Positions 18,311 to 24,475 of a stretch of DNA of 64,000 nt are shown piece after piece (within the stretch, counting starts at the first letter, position 1; the number at the start of each line of letters is the position of its first letter). The notes under the pieces are model-generated. The model saw only the letters and a list, made by a program, of their open reading frames with translations. It searched no databases and was not told the DNA's origin. The stretch is from assembly GCF_014084105.1 (NCBI RefSeq), contig NZ_CP048289.1:7387922-7451921 (forward strand), read 5' to 3'. The stretch is from Streptacidiphilus sp. P02-A3a (GTDB lineage Bacteria; Actinomycetota; Actinomycetes; Streptomycetales; Streptomycetaceae). A program made the translations under genes and the position numbers.

Positions 18311-18319
18311 CCGGACACC

Positions 18320-18359
18320 GGACGGCCCCGCACCCCCACCCGGGGGCGCGGGGCCGTCC
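18320..18359 (+). terminator. Terminator of the pentose-phosphate operon
   Basis: GGACGGCCCCG (18320-18330) pairs with CGGGGCCGTCC (18349-18359). Inside, C18331 pairs with G18348 and CCCCC (18333-18337) with GGGGG (18342-18346), leaving a 4-nt loop. There is no U-tract, as usual in this group. Its right arm is duplicated at 24411-24440. Confidence 0.9.
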
Positions 18360-18369
18360 GCGTTCGGCG
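18340..18369. repeat. Left copy of the 30-bp direct repeat
   Basis: The repeat begins CCGGGGGCGC and ends GCGTTCGGCG, and is identical to 24411-24440. The bases on either side differ between the two copies, so 30 bp is the exact length of identity. Here it forms the right half of the pgl terminator. Confidence 0.95.
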
Positions 18370-18541
18370 GCGGCGGATGCGGTCGAAGCCGCGGGGGCGC
18401 AACGTCGGCCGGCATCCGGGGGTCCGGCGACGGGCGGCCGCTGTGGTCAGACGGGGCCGGAGGCTGGGGGGCGGCTTCCCTGGGCGGAAGCGCGGCGCCA
18501 CGGTAGCGTCGTAGTAGGCGGCGGGCTACGGAGGCGGCGCG

Positions 18542-19747
18542 ATGGGGCAGTGGAGCGACTACAGCACCGGCGAGCGGATCAAACTACTGCGCGGGCCGCA
18601 GACGCAGGAGCAGCTTGCCGGGGAGGCGGGCCTGTCGGTGCACACCATCCGCAAGGCCGAGCACGACCAGGGGCACGTCAGCCTTCAGACCTTGCTGCTG
18701 ATCTCGGCGGCGCTGCACGCGGACGTGTCGGTGATCCTGGGTCAGCAGGCTCCCCGGCGGGCGATGCAGGCAGCCGACCGGGCGATGTTGCGGGCGTTGT
18801 CCCTGGCCGTGCACGACTCGTCGGCCGGGATCGGCGCTGACGTCGAGCCTCCAGGACGGCCGGAGGTCGAAGCCGGTCTCGCCGCAGCGTGGGAAGTCTA
18901 CCGGGCAGGGAACTATGCCCGCGCCGGAGTGCTGGTTGCCCCGGCGCTGCGCGAGGCGACGGCCGCGCTGTCGTCGGCCGGTGTGCACGAGGTGTGCGCG
19001 GCTCATGGTGCCCTGGCTGACGCGTACCGGCTCGCCGCCTATGTTGCGAACCAGTTCGGGGGCCGTGATCTGGCCTATGCCGCAATCGGGCACGCGCACG
19101 TCCAGTCGGACCGTGCCGGGGATCCGGTTCGGGGCGCCTCTACAGCGTCGGGCCGGTCGTGGATCTACATGCGCGACGCGCGGCTGGACCAGGCCCAGGA
19201 GTTGGCACGGGTCTCGTACGAGTCGATCGAGCCGCGGTTCGGTGATCGGGACCTGGGGGCGCTGGCCACCTACGGGTGGCACGTGACACTGGCGGCCGTG
19301 GTGGCTGCGCGGATGGACGACGTGGACGTGGCGGACGACCTGCTGAAGCAGGGGCAGGCAGTTGCGGCGCGGATGGGTTGCGACATCACGGTCAACGGCA
19401 CCGCGTTCGGGCCGGTGACGGTTGCCGCGCAGGCGATCGGGATCAGCGTGTCGACCGGGCGGCCGGGCAAGGCGTTGGCGGACTTCGCCAGGGTGGGGGA
19501 CACCTCGGTGCTGACCACTGCGGCGCGGCGACGGATGATGCTGGATGTGGCGCTGGCACAGGCCGACGCACGGCAGTCCGATGCGGCCCTGGACACCCTG
19601 TTGGACGTCTGTTCGGAAGCGCCGGAGTGGGCACGGCATCAGGCGCTGCCCGGGGTGATCGCACAGAGGGCCAGCGCGGGCAGCGCCACGTTCGGGAAAC
19701 TGCGGCGGCTCGCCGCGATCCTGGGCACGTCCGTCGTCGTGCGGTGA
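18542..19747 (+). CDS. XRE-family HTH regulator with TPR-like C-terminal domain
   Basis: This 401-residue protein has an N-terminal helix-turn-helix of the Cro/CI type (about 9-65: GERIKLLRGPQTQEQLAGEAGLS... recognition-helix region). The long alanine-rich alpha-helical remainder resembles tetratricopeptide repeats. Such proteins are abundant in actinomycetes, where they control neighbouring accessory genes. The ATG at 18542 follows GGAGG (18530-18534). It is the first gene inside the repeat-bounded block and is separated by 216 nt from the sugar genes downstream, in the same direction. The ligand and operator are unknown; a 14-bp palindrome at 19789-19802 is a candidate binding site. Confidence 0.85.
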   Translation: MGQWSDYSTGERIKLLRGPQTQEQLAGEAGLSVHTIRKAEHDQGHVSLQTLLLISAALHADVSVILGQQAPRRAMQAADRAMLRALSLAVHDSSAGIGADVEPPGRPEVEAGLAAAWEVYRAGNYARAGVLVAPALREATAALSSAGVHEVCAAHGALADAYRLAAYVANQFGGRDLAYAAIGHAHVQSDRAGDPVRGASTASGRSWIYMRDARLDQAQELARVSYESIEPRFGDRDLGALATYGWHVTLAAVVAARMDDVDVADDLLKQGQAVAARMGCDITVNGTAFGPVTVAAQAIGISVSTGRPGKALADFARVGDTSVLTTAARRRMMLDVALAQADARQSDAALDTLLDVCSEAPEWARHQALPGVIAQRASAGSATFGKLRRLAAILGTSVVVR

Positions 19748-19788
19748 GCGACTGCAAGTAATACGCCCCGTATCACCCGCCGCCGGGG

Positions 19789-19802
19789 CAGTTCCGGAAC
19801 TG
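19789..19802. promoter_or_regulatory. 14-bp perfect palindrome, candidate operator
   Basis: CAGTTCCGGAACTG is fully palindromic and lies between the HTH regulator gene and the sugar-gene operon, 21 nt before a possible -35. Its position makes it a candidate site for the upstream regulator. No second copy was noticed. Confidence 0.45.
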
Positions 19803-19822
19803 GTACATCCCGTCAGTTCACC

Positions 19823-19850
19823 TTGGGTTACCACACGTTCACAGTAGGAC
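19823..19850 (+). promoter_or_regulatory. Possible promoter of the sugar-nucleotide/sulfur-carrier operon
   Basis: TTGGGT (19823-19828) and TAGGAC (19845-19850) are 16 nt apart, loosely matching a vegetative promoter. It would leave a leader of about 105 nt before the ATG at 19964. Confidence 0.3.
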
Positions 19851-19963
19851 GTGGTCGTTGTCCCGCCGCCCCGGATCCCGGGCACCAGCGGCGAGCGGCG
19901 CCGGGGGAACGTCATGACGGCGCATAGCCGTCGCAACATGACTTGCAGACGGGTTGAGATCTC

Positions 19964-21007
19964 ATGGACGAAGTACTCGTCACGGGTGGAGCGGGGTTCA
20001 TCGGCCGCCACCTGGCGCTGCTGCTCCACCATCAGGGCTACCAGGTCACCGCACTCGACAGGGTGGGTGACGCGAATGCCGCCCACGGTCGGCAGCACCT
20101 CGAATCGGAGGGCATCGCAGTCGTCGAAGGCAGCACCGGCGACCAGGCGCTGATGCGGCGCCTGGTCAGGGGCCACCGAGTCGTTGTCCATCTTGCGGCG
20201 CCGATCGTGGGTGTTCAGCAGAACCTCCGCACTCCGGGCTCGCAGGCCGACGCGCTGCACGACGCCACCGTGCTGGCGAGCATGCTGACCGTCGAGCACA
20301 GGCTGCTGTTCAGCTCAACGTCGGATGTGTACGGGCTGCACTCCGTGCACTACGGGGACAAACCGATGGCGGAGGACGACCTAACGGTGTACGAGAGCCC
20401 GTCCGTCAGCCGCTGGAACTACGCCAAGGCCAAGGCGCTGTCCGAGAGCGTGTTCGCGTGCAGCGCGGCCCGGACCGTCTCCGTGCGGATCTTCAACGCG
20501 TACGGTCCCGGCCTCGACTACCCGCAGGCGCGGCGGGTGATCGCGCAGTTCGTCACGGCCGTCTTCGCCGGCCAGCCGCTGCGCATCAGCGGCAGTGGCG
20601 GGCAGCGCCGCGCGTACTGCTACATCAGCGACCTCGTTGACGGAATCGGGCTCGCCCTCGGCCACGCAGCGAACCTCCCCGTCGGCGGGAACCTGGCGGT
20701 CAACCTCGGCAACCCCGATGAGTACGTGAGCGTCCACGACCTGGCCCGCTTGGTCTGCGACCTGGCTGTCGGCGGGGGCTTCGTCGCCGAGGCCCCGGCG
20801 ATCGAGCGGAGCGCCTACACGTACTCCGAGCCGTTCGACGACACCTGGAGTCGTCGCCCCGACATCACCCGCGCCCGCAGGCTCCTGGGCTACGAGCCGT
20901 CCATGGGCCTGCACGAAGGCATCACCCGGGTCCTGGGGTTCCACGCCGCCCGAACCAGCGCTCCCACCGAGCCGTGGAACAAGGAGCCATCACCGTGGCG
21001 ACTGTGA
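19964..21007 (+). CDS. NAD-dependent sugar-nucleotide epimerase/dehydratase (extended SDR)
   Basis: This 347-residue extended short-chain dehydrogenase most likely acts on an NDP-sugar. The NAD-binding motif GGAGFIG is at 8-14. The catalytic triad is intact: Ser/Thr in FSSTSDVYG (about 117-124), Tyr153 and Lys157 in NYAKAK. The sequence type is between UDP-glucuronate decarboxylases and dTDP-glucose 4,6-dehydratases, and I cannot decide the reaction. The last ~20 residues (HAARTSAPTEPWNKEPSP) look like a disordered tail. The ribosome site is weak. The stop at 21007 overlaps the next gene's start by 13 nt, so translation is probably coupled to the sulfur-carrier gene. Confidence 0.9.
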   Translation: MDEVLVTGGAGFIGRHLALLLHHQGYQVTALDRVGDANAAHGRQHLESEGIAVVEGSTGDQALMRRLVRGHRVVVHLAAPIVGVQQNLRTPGSQADALHDATVLASMLTVEHRLLFSSTSDVYGLHSVHYGDKPMAEDDLTVYESPSVSRWNYAKAKALSESVFACSAARTVSVRIFNAYGPGLDYPQARRVIAQFVTAVFAGQPLRISGSGGQRRAYCYISDLVDGIGLALGHAANLPVGGNLAVNLGNPDEYVSVHDLARLVCDLAVGGGFVAEAPAIERSAYTYSEPFDDTWSRRPDITRARRLLGYEPSMGLHEGITRVLGFHAARTSAPTEPWNKEPSPWRL

Positions 21008-21264
21008 CCGTTCCGGGCGGGTGGACGCCGACGACCGGCGGGCGCAGCACTTTCACCTACCCGGGCGACACCGTCGGTTCGATCCTCGATCGGCTCGCGG
21101 CCGACTACCCCGACCTGCGCAAGCGGATCTTCTCGGGGCAGCAGATCGCCGGGTGGATCAACGTCTACATCGGTGACGACGACGTGCGCTGGGCCGGAGG
21201 CTTGTCCGCCGCGATCGGCCCGGAGGTCGACTTGGTCATCCTGCCCGCACTGGCCGGGGGCTGA
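20995..21264 (+). CDS. ThiS/MoaD-like sulfur carrier protein
   Basis: This 89-residue protein has the ubiquitin-like beta-grasp pattern and ends in Gly-Gly (PALAGG), the C-terminus that is adenylated and thiocarboxylated in ThiS, MoaD and CysO. The TVGSILDRLAADYPDLRKRI helix and the closing DLVILPALAGG strand are characteristic of MoaD-type carriers. The GTG at 20995 is set by AAGGAG (20981-20986) and overlaps the upstream gene. No E1-like activating enzyme or sulfurtransferase gene is in the block, so activation would rely on a MoeB/ThiF homologue elsewhere. Its place among sugar-nucleotide genes suggests sulfur delivery to a small molecule, as known for 2-thiosugar pathways; this is inference. 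Confidence 0.88.
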   Translation: MATVTVPGGWTPTTGGRSTFTYPGDTVGSILDRLAADYPDLRKRIFSGQQIAGWINVYIGDDDVRWAGGLSAAIGPEVDLVILPALAGG

Positions 21265-21305
21265 CTCCCAGCCCGTACTCCAATCCCACCTATCTCGGAG
21301 AAGGC

Positions 21306-22130
21306 ATGCGAATCCTCGTCCTCGGCAGCGCCGGTCTGCTCGGCAGTGCCCTGTGCGCCTCACGCCGCTCCGGTACGGAGATCACCGGTGTTGCGCGCGC
21401 GGCGTGTGATATCACCGATCTGGCCCAGGTCACCGCAGCGGTGGCCGCTCACCAGCCCGATGCTGTGGTCAACACGGGCGCGGTGCCGGACACCCGTTCC
21501 TGCGAGGCGGATCCGGCCCGCGTGTGGCCCGTCAACGCCATCGGTGCCCGAAACTGCGCGTTCGCCGCGAACGCCGTCGGCGCCTTCTGCGTGCAGATCA
21601 GCGGCAACGTCGTCTTCCGCACCGCCGAACACGCCCGGCGCGAATGGGAACAGCCTGACAACCCCCACGGGCACCTGGCCGCCAGCAAGGCCGCCGGTGA
21701 AGGCTACGTCAGGAGCCTTGCGCACAGGCCCCTGGTCGTGCGTACGGCGTGCCTGTTCGGTGACCGTGCGGACGGCATGCCGGGCGGCCTGGTCGGCAGG
21801 ATCCGCCAGCACGCCACCGGCAGCACGCTGCACATGTCGTCCAACACGGTCACCAGCGCCGCGTACGCACCTGACGTGGCCGCCGCAGTCGTGGACCTGC
21901 TCGTCTGCGGCCAGGTCGGAGTCTTCCACCTGGTCAATCCGGGCAGCACCACCCCGGTCGACCTCGCGCGGACCGTCGTGGCCGTCACCGGGCAGCGCGC
22001 GACCGTTGAGGAGGTCGCTACTGAGCCGGAGCAGCGGTTGCTGGCGTGCGATCTCGCCGAGGTGGCCGGCATCAGGCTCCGGCCATTGGACCATGCCCTG
22101 CTCAGCTACCTCACCGGCTCGGGGAGATAG
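21306..22130 (+). CDS. RmlD-like (dTDP-4-dehydrorhamnose reductase fold) protein with altered active site
   Basis: This 274-residue protein has the RmlD fold, with GSAGLLGS at 7-14 and the DITDLAQV segment typical of the family. The usual catalytic Thr in an STD motif is replaced (S99-G100-N101). In the YxxxK position K128 is kept, but the tyrosine is Leu124 (LAASK). Such changes suggest it no longer reduces a keto-sugar in the standard way. It may bind nucleotide as a regulatory subunit, as MAT2B does, or use other residues. The ATG at 21306 is preceded by GGAGAAGGC at good distance. The stop lies 2 nt before the next start, so the gene is tightly coupled to the FGE-like gene. Confidence 0.85.
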   Translation: MRILVLGSAGLLGSALCASRRSGTEITGVARAACDITDLAQVTAAVAAHQPDAVVNTGAVPDTRSCEADPARVWPVNAIGARNCAFAANAVGAFCVQISGNVVFRTAEHARREWEQPDNPHGHLAASKAAGEGYVRSLAHRPLVVRTACLFGDRADGMPGGLVGRIRQHATGSTLHMSSNTVTSAAYAPDVAAAVVDLLVCGQVGVFHLVNPGSTTPVDLARTVVAVTGQRATVEEVATEPEQRLLACDLAEVAGIRLRPLDHALLSYLTGSGR

Positions 22131-22132
22131 TC

Positions 22133-23038
22133 GTGCTACCTGTACACGACATGGTGCCGGTGGCTGCCGGGGAGCTGACGATGGGCACCAGCGAGGAGGC
22201 CCTGGACTTCATCGCGGCCTCCCAGCACCTTCCGCGGTCCTGGTTCGAGGACGAGGCCCCGGTCCACGCCGTGGCTGTCTCGGCGTTCGCGATCGATCGG
22301 CATCCGGTCACCAACATGCAGTTCGCGGCGTTCACCGAGGCCACGGGGTACCGGACCGCCGCTGAGGAGCGCGGCTTCGGCCTGGTCTACGGCGAGCAGT
22401 TCTGGGAGGAGACCGCTGGTGCCTGCTGGCGCTCCCCCGCCGGTCCGAACCAGGTCACGGCAGCTGAGCGGCCCGAGCACCCGGTGGTGCACATCGCATG
22501 GCTGGACGCCTACGCCTATACCGCGTGGGCGCGTCTGCGATTGCCCAGCGAAGCGGAGTGGGAGTACGCGGCCCGCGGACCCGGCAGCCAACGCCTGTGG
22601 CCGTGGGGCGACGGATGGGACCCGGCCCGCTGCAACACCGCTGAGACCGCCGGCGGCGCAGCGATCACCGACATGAGCGGCTGGCGGGACTGGTGGGGGC
22701 GCTGTCGAGCCACCCGGGGGCTGCCCGGCACGACCCCGGTCGGCTCATGCCCGGGCGGCCGGTCCCCGTTCGGGGTGGCGGATCTGTCCGGGAACGTGCA
22801 GGAGTGGACCGCCAGCCCTCATCTGCCCTACGACCCCGCTCGCGACTACGGCGATCTGTATGCCCGCATCGCCGGACGCTACCGCGTAATTCGCGGGGGC
22901 AGCTGGATGCACTACCGCTGGCAGACCCGATGCGCGGAGAGGATCGCGGCCGACGTCCACTACAGCAACTTCAGCCTCGGATTCCGCTGCGCCGCCAGTC
23001 AACCCAACGCTACGTCAACTTCCTTCCCTGGCTGGTGA
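22133..23038 (+). CDS. Formylglycine-generating-enzyme-family (SUMF1/EgtB/PvdO fold) protein lacking the Cys pair
   Basis: This 301-residue protein has the FGE-sulfatase fold: PVHAVAVSAFAIDRHPVTN near 43-61, LRLPSEAEWEYAARG near 135-149, WPWGDGWDP near 156-164, ADLSGNVQEWTAS near 216-228, and the closing RGGSW...LGFRCA near 254-287. In true FGE the segment after GGS carries two copper-binding cysteines (as recalled, CHRSYC in human). Here it reads M259-H260-YRWQ-T265-R-C267, so both are replaced. It is therefore probably not a sulfatase activator, and no sulfatase gene is nearby. The family also includes EgtB-like sulfoxide synthases, interesting beside a sulfur carrier. The GTG at 22133 follows GGGGAGA by 5 nt. 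Confidence 0.88.
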   Translation: MLPVHDMVPVAAGELTMGTSEEALDFIAASQHLPRSWFEDEAPVHAVAVSAFAIDRHPVTNMQFAAFTEATGYRTAAEERGFGLVYGEQFWEETAGACWRSPAGPNQVTAAERPEHPVVHIAWLDAYAYTAWARLRLPSEAEWEYAARGPGSQRLWPWGDGWDPARCNTAETAGGAAITDMSGWRDWWGRCRATRGLPGTTPVGSCPGGRSPFGVADLSGNVQEWTASPHLPYDPARDYGDLYARIAGRYRVIRGGSWMHYRWQTRCAERIAADVHYSNFSLGFRCAASQPNATSTSFPGW

Positions 23039-23085
23039 CGGCGGTAGAGTTCGACCAGCCCGGCCTGGGCGCTCGCGCGGGTCAA

Positions 23086-23103
23086 CCCCGCGACGGTGCG
23101 GGG
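23086..23103 (+). terminator. Small GC hairpin between the FGE-like and GalE-like genes
   Basis: CCCCGC (23086-23091) pairs with GCGGGG (23098-23103) around a 6-nt loop. It may attenuate or end transcription from the preceding genes. The stem is short. Confidence 0.3.
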
Positions 23104-23138
23104 ACAGCAGACCACATCACTCCGAACAGGGGAACAGG

Positions 23139-24137
23139 GTGAAGATCCTCATCGCAGGCGGTGCCGGATTCATCGGCAGCACCATCGCATCAGCCTGTGA
23201 CGACAGCGGAGTCCGGACGGTCGTCCTGGACAACCTCGTCACCGGGCGTCGGGAGTACACCCGGGACCGCGCCTTCTACGAGGGCGACATCGCCGACGGG
23301 GACCTGATCGACCGGATCTTCGCCGAGCACCCGGACATCCACGCGGTCATCGACTGCGCCGCCCTGATCGTGGTACCGGACTCCGTTGCCGACCCGCTCG
23401 GCTACTACCGGGAGAACGTCGCCAAGGGCATCCAGTTCATCGACCATCTGGTGCGCAACGGCTGCCCCCGGCTGCTCTTCAGCTCCTCCGCCTCGATCTA
23501 CCGAGCCGACCCCGGCGATTTCTCCGTGGACGAGACCTCCGCCATCGAGGCCTTGAGCCCCTACGCCCGCACCAAGGCCATCTTCGAGACGATCCTGCGT
23601 GACATCGCCGCCTCCGGCGCCCTCAAGGTCATCTCGCTGCGGTACTTCAACCCGATCGGCGCGGACCCCCAGCTACGCACCGGGCTGCAGATCCGCAAGC
23701 CCACACATGCCCTGGGCAAGATGATCGACGTCCACAACGCCGGAGAGCAGTTCACCATCACCGGAACCAACTGGCCGACCCGCGACGGCTCCGGTATCCG
23801 CGACTACGTCCACGTGTGGGACCTCGCCCGCGCGCACGTCAACGCCGTCCGCCGGTTTGACGACGTCACTGATCCGGACCCCTACCGCGTCATCAATCTA
23901 GGCACCGGCGACGGAACCACCGTGCGAGAGCTCATCGCAGCCTTCGAGGGTGTGATCGGTCAGAAGCTGTCCTGCGTCGAGACCGGCCCGCGCCCCGGCG
24001 ACACCGCTGGCGCCTACACCCGCAGCAGCCTCGCACAGGAACTCCTTGACTGGAAGCCCCAGCTGTCCATTGAGGACGGCATTCGTGACTCCCTGCGCTG
24101 GTACGCCAAGCGCGATACGGTGATCGACACCGACTAG
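23139..24137 (+). CDS. UDP-glucose 4-epimerase-like NAD-dependent epimerase
   Basis: This 332-residue extended SDR is most like GalE, which interconverts UDP-glucose and UDP-galactose. The NAD motif GGAGFIG is at 7-13. The active-site Ser is in FSSSASIY (about 114-121), with Tyr142 and Lys146 in PYARTK. The RYFNPIGADP and RDYVHVWDLARAH segments are typical GalE substrate- and dimer-region features. The GTG at 23139 is preceded by a weak GGGGAACAGG. It lies 100 nt after the FGE-like gene, so it may be a separate transcription unit. It is the last intact gene in the repeat-bounded block. Confidence 0.9.
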   Translation: MKILIAGGAGFIGSTIASACDDSGVRTVVLDNLVTGRREYTRDRAFYEGDIADGDLIDRIFAEHPDIHAVIDCAALIVVPDSVADPLGYYRENVAKGIQFIDHLVRNGCPRLLFSSSASIYRADPGDFSVDETSAIEALSPYARTKAIFETILRDIAASGALKVISLRYFNPIGADPQLRTGLQIRKPTHALGKMIDVHNAGEQFTITGTNWPTRDGSGIRDYVHVWDLARAHVNAVRRFDDVTDPDPYRVINLGTGDGTTVRELIAAFEGVIGQKLSCVETGPRPGDTAGAYTRSSLAQELLDWKPQLSIEDGIRDSLRWYAKRDTVIDTD

Positions 24138-24227
24138 AGCCCCGGCGGCCATCACACCCCAGGGCTGGTCCGAGGCACGAAGCAGCCCCGCACCTCGGTA
24201 CGGGACGCAGCTGTAGTCCGGTCTCCG

Positions 24228-24410
24228 TCACCCGGCGGAGCGCGGCACACGCGGGCCCTCCGACCCGGACCGGCCGGTCCAGCGCCTGTACAGCTCGGGG
24301 TGAGAGCAGCCAGGACGGCTCGGCCGAGTCGGAGACCTGTGTCGCGCGCAGCTGTCCAGCAACGCCTCGGCGAGGTAGTCGCCTGTCAGCACGGCGCGAA
24401 GGCCGATCGG
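24228..24410 (-). pseudogene. Possible coding remnant at the right edge of the block
   Basis: The 338-nt space 24138-24475 has no complete gene. On the minus strand, a frame from the repeat edge (24410) to a TGA at 24228 reads like protein (RAVLTGDYLAEALLDSCAR, then HPELYRRWTGRSG). It uses codons unlike the flanking core genes (ACA, TTG, AGG, ACT). It has no ribosome site and runs straight into the repeat, as a gene truncated by the insertion would. I cannot name a family, and it may be chance. Confidence 0.25.
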
Positions 24411-24412
24411 CC
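24401..24412. repeat. 12-bp palindrome at the right repeat edge
   Basis: GGCCGATCGGCC is a perfect palindrome overlapping the first two bases of the right 30-bp repeat. It has no counterpart at the left copy. Confidence 0.5.
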
Positions 24413-24440
24413 GGGGGCGCGGGGCCGTCCGCGTTCGGCG
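24411..24440. repeat. Right copy of the 30-bp direct repeat
   Basis: Identical to 18340-18369. Here only the right arm of the original terminator hairpin is present. It lies 36 nt beyond the rbpA stop, where a terminator for rbpA would be expected. Confidence 0.95.
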
Positions 24441-24475
24441 CGGGTGGCGGCGCGGGACCGGGGCCGTCGCCGGGG

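Follow-up and report, generated by a model that had tools for sequence, protein, structure and literature searches.

What an FGE-fold protein does among sugar-nucleotide enzymes, and why a small sulfur-carrier-like protein is encoded beside it, are the questions raised by a gene cassette of Streptacidiphilus sp. P02-A3a. The cassette lies in a stretch of 64,000 nucleotides of contig NZ_CP048289.1 (hereafter the window, meaning the whole stretch analyzed) and consists of five genes that follow a regulator gene. An original prediction, made from the sequence alone, had regarded it as an undescribed-looking set that may make a sulfur-modified sugar or nucleotide, and its five genes and regulator were all recovered, with the same positions and overlaps (Table 1). 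We found that the FGE-fold protein is, by sequence and structural model, a member of the family of CalU17, a protein from the pathway of the enediyne antitumor antibiotic calicheamicin, and that a ThiS-like carrier gene accompanies the members of this family in other genomes. We propose, with a probability of about 0.48, that the cassette was horizontally acquired and puts sulfur on a nucleotide sugar by means of the carrier and the CalU17-type protein.

The CalU17 family and its carrier

The FGE-fold protein of the window shared 51% identity with CalU17 over 286 aligned columns, and a profile of eight family members matched CalU17 with 446 bits, the next PDB entry reaching 166 bits. Its predicted model (predicted local distance difference test score, 89) aligned with the CalU17 structure 6vqp with a Z score of 38.8 and a root-mean-square deviation of 2.0 over 286 residues, compared with Z scores of 31 for human FGE and 26 for EgtB. 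Because CalU17 is a named and structurally solved relative (PDB entries 6vqp, 7ml6, and 7msy), the protein does not constitute a new family, and the word "undescribed" was too strong for it. CalU17 was not found mentioned by name in the literature searched, which was mostly open-access, and the open-access papers that matched contained no mention of the entries 7ML6, 6VQP, and 7MSY.

A classical FGE or an EgtB-like enzyme was considered and rejected on account of missing cysteines and a missing DinB domain. The FGE proteins (SUMF1 and bacterial FGE) have the same fold (Z ~31), but their copper-binding cysteine pair (LCHxSYC) was identified by motif search in none of the 30 CalU17-family sequences, as against 64 of the 75 other FGE-fold sequences. 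Likewise, EgtB, OvoA, and SenA share the FGE-fold core (Z ~18-26), whereas their DinB iron-binding domain was not found in the window protein, in whose 301 aa FGE-sulfatase was the sole Pfam domain. The best NCBIfam matches of this protein, SenA (101 bits) and EgtB (96.5 bits), were far under the respective cut-offs of 420 and 360. The analogy with EgtB and OvoA drawn in the original prediction is therefore limited to the fold, as the DinB domain is absent. By their family names, relatives with this fold catalyze the formation of C-S or C-Se bonds, and the entry 8k5i is, according to its title, SenA, an FGE-fold enzyme, solved with thioglucose. In addition, a motif of the type GGSWMxxRxQxRxxER near the classical active site was present in 28 of the 30 CalU17-family members and in none of the 75 other FGE-fold loci.

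A ThiS-like gene was located within ~5 kb in all 30 CalU17-family loci and in none of the 75 other FGE-fold loci, in the stretches examined (Fisher 6e-27, a value that overstates the number of independent events because near-identical relatives are among the 30 loci). Gene calls in the unannotated loci were rough and made for this analysis. The carrier and enzyme genes were at most 74 nt apart in 27 of the 30 loci; the distance was 868 nt in the window, with the RmlD-like gene between them, and 1.5 kb in locus L069. Genome G531 (L171/L174) was the sole locus seen with the two genes ~5 kb apart and on opposite strands. All 30 paired carriers, including that of the window, ended in GG.

The inter-locus distances of the carriers and of the enzymes were strongly correlated (r 0.949, n=30; 0 of 10,000 permutations), consistent with parallel descent of the pair. 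In the carrier tree, the 30 paired carriers were on one side of a branch and 33 other ThiS-like carriers (31 from the order of the window and two from plasmid records) on the opposite side, with support of 97/92 and 98% of bootstraps. The four carriers of the stand-alone loci described below clustered together with weaker support (95/77), and the inner order of the tree is unsure because it rests on 91 columns only, with long branches meeting. A housekeeping copy of the carrier with passenger genes was rejected by the correlation and by the split of the tree. The original prediction had named two results that would speak against it, a lack of co-occurrence elsewhere and a carrier clustering tightly with MoaD among genes that are unrelated passengers. 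Neither was observed: the carrier and FGE-fold genes recur, and the carrier falls outside the other ThiS-like carriers, a set with no verified MoaD.

The nearest solved structure of the window carrier was 3dwg (60.6 bits), which we take to be CysO; the paired carriers, in contrast, form a separate group, and no CysM, JAMM, or E1 was found near them. The window carrier was also 46.6% identical over 73 aa to the carrier of a quinolobactin-like cluster, presumably of the QbsE type. In an unannotated cluster of Burkholderia multivorans NZ_CP143551.1 (L035:9215-15436), a ThiS-like carrier was found with an M67/JAMM protease and a MoeZ-like E1, the latter two being 45% and 55% identical to those of the window's genome. 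Open reading frames of this locus resemble, by eye, tryptophan dioxygenase and kynurenine monooxygenase, and the locus looks like thioquinolobactin biosynthesis.

Enediyne-type and stand-alone loci

The 30 loci comprised four stand-alone loci and 26 loci of enediyne type. Of the latter, 19 were from Micromonosporaceae (the family of Dactylosporangium; 18 of 354 genomes positive), and two more were from two genomes in a set of 297 from the family that includes Saccharothrix. The others were those of Saccharothrix, Actinomadura harenae, Amycolatopsis rhizosphaerae (two copies), and the Streptomyces plasmid NBC_00209, whose near-twin NBC_00441 was not counted. Two CalU17/ThiS pairs were present in one genome in G308 (L071 and L173) and in G753 (L185 and L199). 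The Micromonosporaceae relatives, from a separate family search, were 46-51% identical to the window FGE-fold protein. A contig scan, which is no measure of rarity and did not show these Micromonosporaceae proteins, gave five close matches, the others among the matches listed being at most 42% identical. That the pair generally comes from phages was rejected, although two stand-alone loci adjoin phage genes: two scans of viral contigs gave no relative above 39%, among 27 loci in one and among the best 80 of 234 matches (79 loci) in the other, and at E 1e-10 no relative exceeded 30% in 50,697 phage records.

In the enediyne-type loci, the carrier gene was 3' of the enzyme gene on the same strand in 25 of 26 cases, the exception being G531. 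An enediyne polyketide synthase (PKS) was present in all 18 Micromonosporaceae genomes with the pair (positive genomes only), within 20 kb in seven and by whole-genome search in eleven; as a base rate, PMC5181780 gives an enediyne PKS in 81 of 3,400 actinomycetes. The genes for E4, E5, P450, TE, and PksE were all within 20 kb of the pair in G776, G855, G811, G802, G650, G825, and G615, and in NBC_00441 the pair was 16 kb from the enediyne PKS. In 20 of the 26 loci (NBC_00441 standing for its twin), PksE was at most 60 kb away on the contig that carries the pair. In the first copy of G308 and in G307, E4/E5 genes were near the pair and PksE was on other contigs; in the second copy of G753 and in G658, G680, and G306, PksE was distant or on another contig; and in G481 only fragments of it were detected, at the border of the stretch, and these fail the whole-protein threshold.

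Six of these loci (G766, G773, G844, G829, G840, and the second copy of G753) encoded proteins 83-92% identical to CalU17, with the carrier 6-7 nt from the enzyme in all six and 6 nt away in the nearest (92%). The neighbors in G773, among them a radical SAM protein, a type I PKS, a KSIII, P450s, and glycosyltransferases, are such as one would expect in calicheamicin-like clusters. The closest relatives of CalU17, all in loci of enediyne type, also have a ThiS-like gene beside them, whereas the window pair stands alone in a sugar cassette in which the carrier gene precedes the enzyme gene, and a search of its genome for an enediyne PKS gave no hit of this kind (best match 34% over part).

The stand-alone loci were those of the window, the plasmid of Streptomyces sp. 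MBT27 (L034), Streptomyces sp. ASQP_92 (L067), and Nocardia sp. CC227C (L068). No enediyne PKS was found in the genomes of the window, L067, and L068 (best 34-41% over part) or in the MBT27 plasmid record. A GalE-like gene was beside the pair in all four loci, with identities to the GalE of the window of 66% in L034, 66% in L067, and 34% in L068. In L068, the pair was preceded by genes for a nucleoside diphosphate (NDP)-sugar dehydrogenase and a short-chain dehydrogenase/reductase (SDR) 34% identical to that of the window. Co-occurrence in a conserved order had been suggested as a check: the carrier/FGE-fold pair does recur, with a GalE-like gene in the four loci, but the five-gene order was not seen elsewhere because an RmlD-like gene was not found in L034, L067, and L068. 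On the MBT27 plasmid, an ATP-grasp protein (L034:322-1311) akin to peptide maturases was encoded directly upstream of the carrier and matched GRASP_SAV_5884 with 77 bits, below the cut-off of 350.

The L034 locus adjoins a portal protein gene and L068 is near minor tail and endolysin genes; together with the island character of the window copy, these neighbors mean that the stand-alone type appears to be mobile. In the mostly open-access literature searched, we found neither the pairing with the carrier nor the cassette in its stand-alone form described.

The cassette and its probable insertion site

Table 1. Genes of the cassette and direct repeats at its borders (positions in the window)
Feature	Coordinates	Strand	Evidence or remark
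Direct repeat, left copy, 30 bp perfect	18340..18369		3' half of terminator-like hairpin after pgl
XRE helix-turn-helix regulator, long C-terminal region, 401 aa	18542..19747	+	Pfam HTH_3 27 bits, cut-off 23
Extended SDR, UXS/ArnA-like, 347 aa	19964..21007	+	Pfam Epimerase
ThiS/CysO-like beta-grasp carrier, GG-ended, 89 aa	20995..21264	+	Pfam ThiS 21.3 bits, homology to 3dwg
RmlD-like SDR, 274 aa	21306..22130	+	Pfam RmlD 134.8 bits
FGE-fold protein, CalU17 family, 301 aa	22133..23038	+	Pfam FGE-sulfatase 205.1 bits
UDP-glucose 4-epimerase (GalE) family protein, 332 aa	23139..24137	+	Pfam Epimerase; TIGR01179 285.1 bits
Direct repeat, right copy, 30 bp perfect	24411..24440		just before rbpA

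Most details of the original prediction agreed with the genes as analyzed here. The extended SDR retains the triad (S118, Y153, and K157), and its nearest solved structures were UDP-glucuronate decarboxylases (117 bits, E 9.7e-33). The catalytic set of UXS is T, E, Y, and K; the SDR has STSDVYG where UXS has STSEVYG, a replacement of Glu by Asp, with the T, Y, and K positions kept. The carrier gene begins at a GTG start codon, with AAGGAG eight bases upstream, and so overlaps the SDR gene by 13 nt; the carrier ends in GG as described; its Pfam ThiS score was slightly below the cut-off of 22.5 bits. The 2-nt spacing between the RmlD-like and FGE-fold genes was also reproduced, and the GalE-like protein exceeded the TIGR01179 cut-off of 262.3 bits, which places it in the GalE family. 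Two labels held in part. The helix-turn-helix of the "XRE/TPR" regulator was matched, but its TPR part was not found in the Pfam scan. The RmlD-like label agreed with the Pfam match, but the sequence reads GHLAASK in the alignment, with Leu at the catalytic Tyr of RmlD, so that the YxxxK Tyr is missing, and the TIGR01214 score of 134 bits was below the cut-off of 224; judged from these residues, this SDR is probably no ordinary reductase.

The cassette is located between pgl and rbpA (whole gap, 18311-24475), and from the end of the left repeat copy to the end of the right copy it forms an island of 6,071 bp with six genes. Among these genes no recombinase was recognized, and no Rfam RNA or tRNA was found at the integration site. 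In two of 13 same-genus genomes (G302 and G303), the pgl-rbpA gap was ~0.1 kb and otherwise empty, and in the same-genus loci L150 and L152 it held a single terminator-like hairpin, with ~0.1 kb from pgl to rbpA. In the remaining 11 genomes other DNA occupied the gap, with lengths that differed from one to the next (~0.8 to 15.8 kb), and none of the 13 gaps had a match to the cassette genes. On the basis of the direct repeats and of these empty or otherwise filled gaps, the six genes probably arrived as one unit at an often-filled site. At E 1e-13, the carrier was detected only in the window's own genome among 14 genomes of the genus, and in 293 genomes of the order nothing outside the window was better than E 1.3e-14. 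The gap resembles an insertion hot spot in Streptacidiphilus (also L336-L346). The repeats that bound the island are a duplicated half terminator.

Proposed sulfur transfer and its alternatives

A MoeZ-type E1 (ThiF plus rhodanese) is encoded elsewhere in the genome of the window. Searches with working positive controls detected no gene for E1, JAMM, or CysM close to the pair in the 29 regions examined, that of the window among them, or in the NBC_00441 cluster. Both findings agree with the earlier suggestion that the partners may lie elsewhere. We infer every catalytic step of the scheme that follows, along with its substrate and product. The general E1 of the host, MoeZ, would adenylate and thiocarboxylate the carrier at its GG end, and the UXS-like SDR and GalE would supply an NDP-sugar, perhaps via a 4-keto form. 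The CalU17-type protein would dock the carrier, join its sulfur to the sugar, and release a thiosugar nucleotide, in a step that is probably O2-dependent by analogy with EgtB and SenA. A sulfur-modified sugar would thus be the putative product, and the same two proteins would introduce sulfur into calicheamicin-like enediynes. Sulfur-carrier proteins likewise serve thiosugar formation in the BE-7585A 2-thiosugar pathway, in which primary metabolism provides the carriers and the ThiG-like synthase BexX forms the bond; in the window, by contrast, the carrier is dedicated and no ThiG-like synthase gene was found among the six genes of the island.

Several observations weigh against this proposal. 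The genes of the island include no glycosyltransferase, desulfurase, or E1, no E1 was near the pairs examined, and the known metal site types are missing from the CalU17-type protein. The SDR scored 104 bits against PRK11908, below the cut-off of 294, which leaves a UXS role uncertain, and the best match of the L068 SDR was a dTDP-glucose dehydratase, also below cut-off. In G680, no sugar or glycosyltransferase query matched within 20 kb. Enediynes are often glycosylated, and sugar genes beside the enediyne-type pairs therefore discriminate little. Enediynes other than calicheamicin may lack sulfur, and the acceptor of sulfur in enediynes may be the aglycone. For calicheamicin, moreover, calE4, calS4, and calE6 are already candidates for the sulfur genes (PMC4851618).

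The enzymes that bring sulfur into the trisulfide and the thiosugar of calicheamicin were reported as unknown in 2016 (PMC4851618). That CalU17 and a dedicated thiocarboxylate carrier are the missing sulfur pair of the calicheamicin type and a new catalytic type of the FGE fold, with the window as a mobile, self-contained thiosugar-nucleotide cassette, would be a bolder and in our judgment doubtful claim.

Insertion of sulfur by the pair into the aglycone, for example the enediyne warhead, with the stand-alone cassettes acting on another host metabolite, seems rather unlikely. The seven Micromonosporaceae loci with the E4, E5, P450, TE, and PksE genes close to the pair would fit it, as would the allylic trisulfide that calicheamicin has in addition to its thiosugar (PMC4851618), but the stand-alone loci carry sugar-nucleotide enzymes and lack a recognizable enediyne PKS in the genomes and plasmid record searched. 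Alternatively, the FGE-fold protein might bind or protect, in a C-type-lectin-like or self-resistance role, with the carrier as a tag or regulator and no sulfur passing to a metabolite. Scaffolds for binding or structure are also built on the FGE fold (variable proteins, and PorK in the structure comparison), the CalU17 family has no known catalytic metal site, and a resistance function is ascribed to a further CalU protein, CalU16 (PMC8488855). Such a role is nevertheless quite unlikely, given the strict family-specific motif around the classical active site, and self-resistance would leave the cassettes outside enediyne producers unexplained.

The ATP-grasp protein encoded upstream of the carrier on the MBT27 plasmid would suit a carrier that is a scaffold built on at its C-terminus, in the manner of ATP-grasp peptide/amino-carrier systems, with the FGE-fold protein oxidizing the bound intermediate. 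This appears improbable: the ATP-grasp score was below cut-off, and the called genes searched around the pairs of L067, of L068, and of the window included no recognizable protein of this kind. Finally, the cassette might be an ordinary one for sugar nucleotides that has picked up unrelated genes, to which the variability of the RmlD-like gene among the stand-alone loci might point. This is very improbable, being contradicted for the ThiS/FGE pair by the constant pairing and parallel descent; the RmlD-like gene and the SDR may still be such passengers.

Taken together, sulfur transfer to a nucleotide sugar by the carrier and the CalU17-type protein is the reading that we propose, and the constant partner gene makes it directly testable whether CalU17 takes up sulfur from this carrier. 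The stand-alone cassette provides a small system without an enediyne PKS for studying this chemistry. If the proposal is true, the FGE fold would gain a further way of handling sulfur beside its copper and DinB-iron types, and the carrier/CalU17 pair would be a marker for genome mining.

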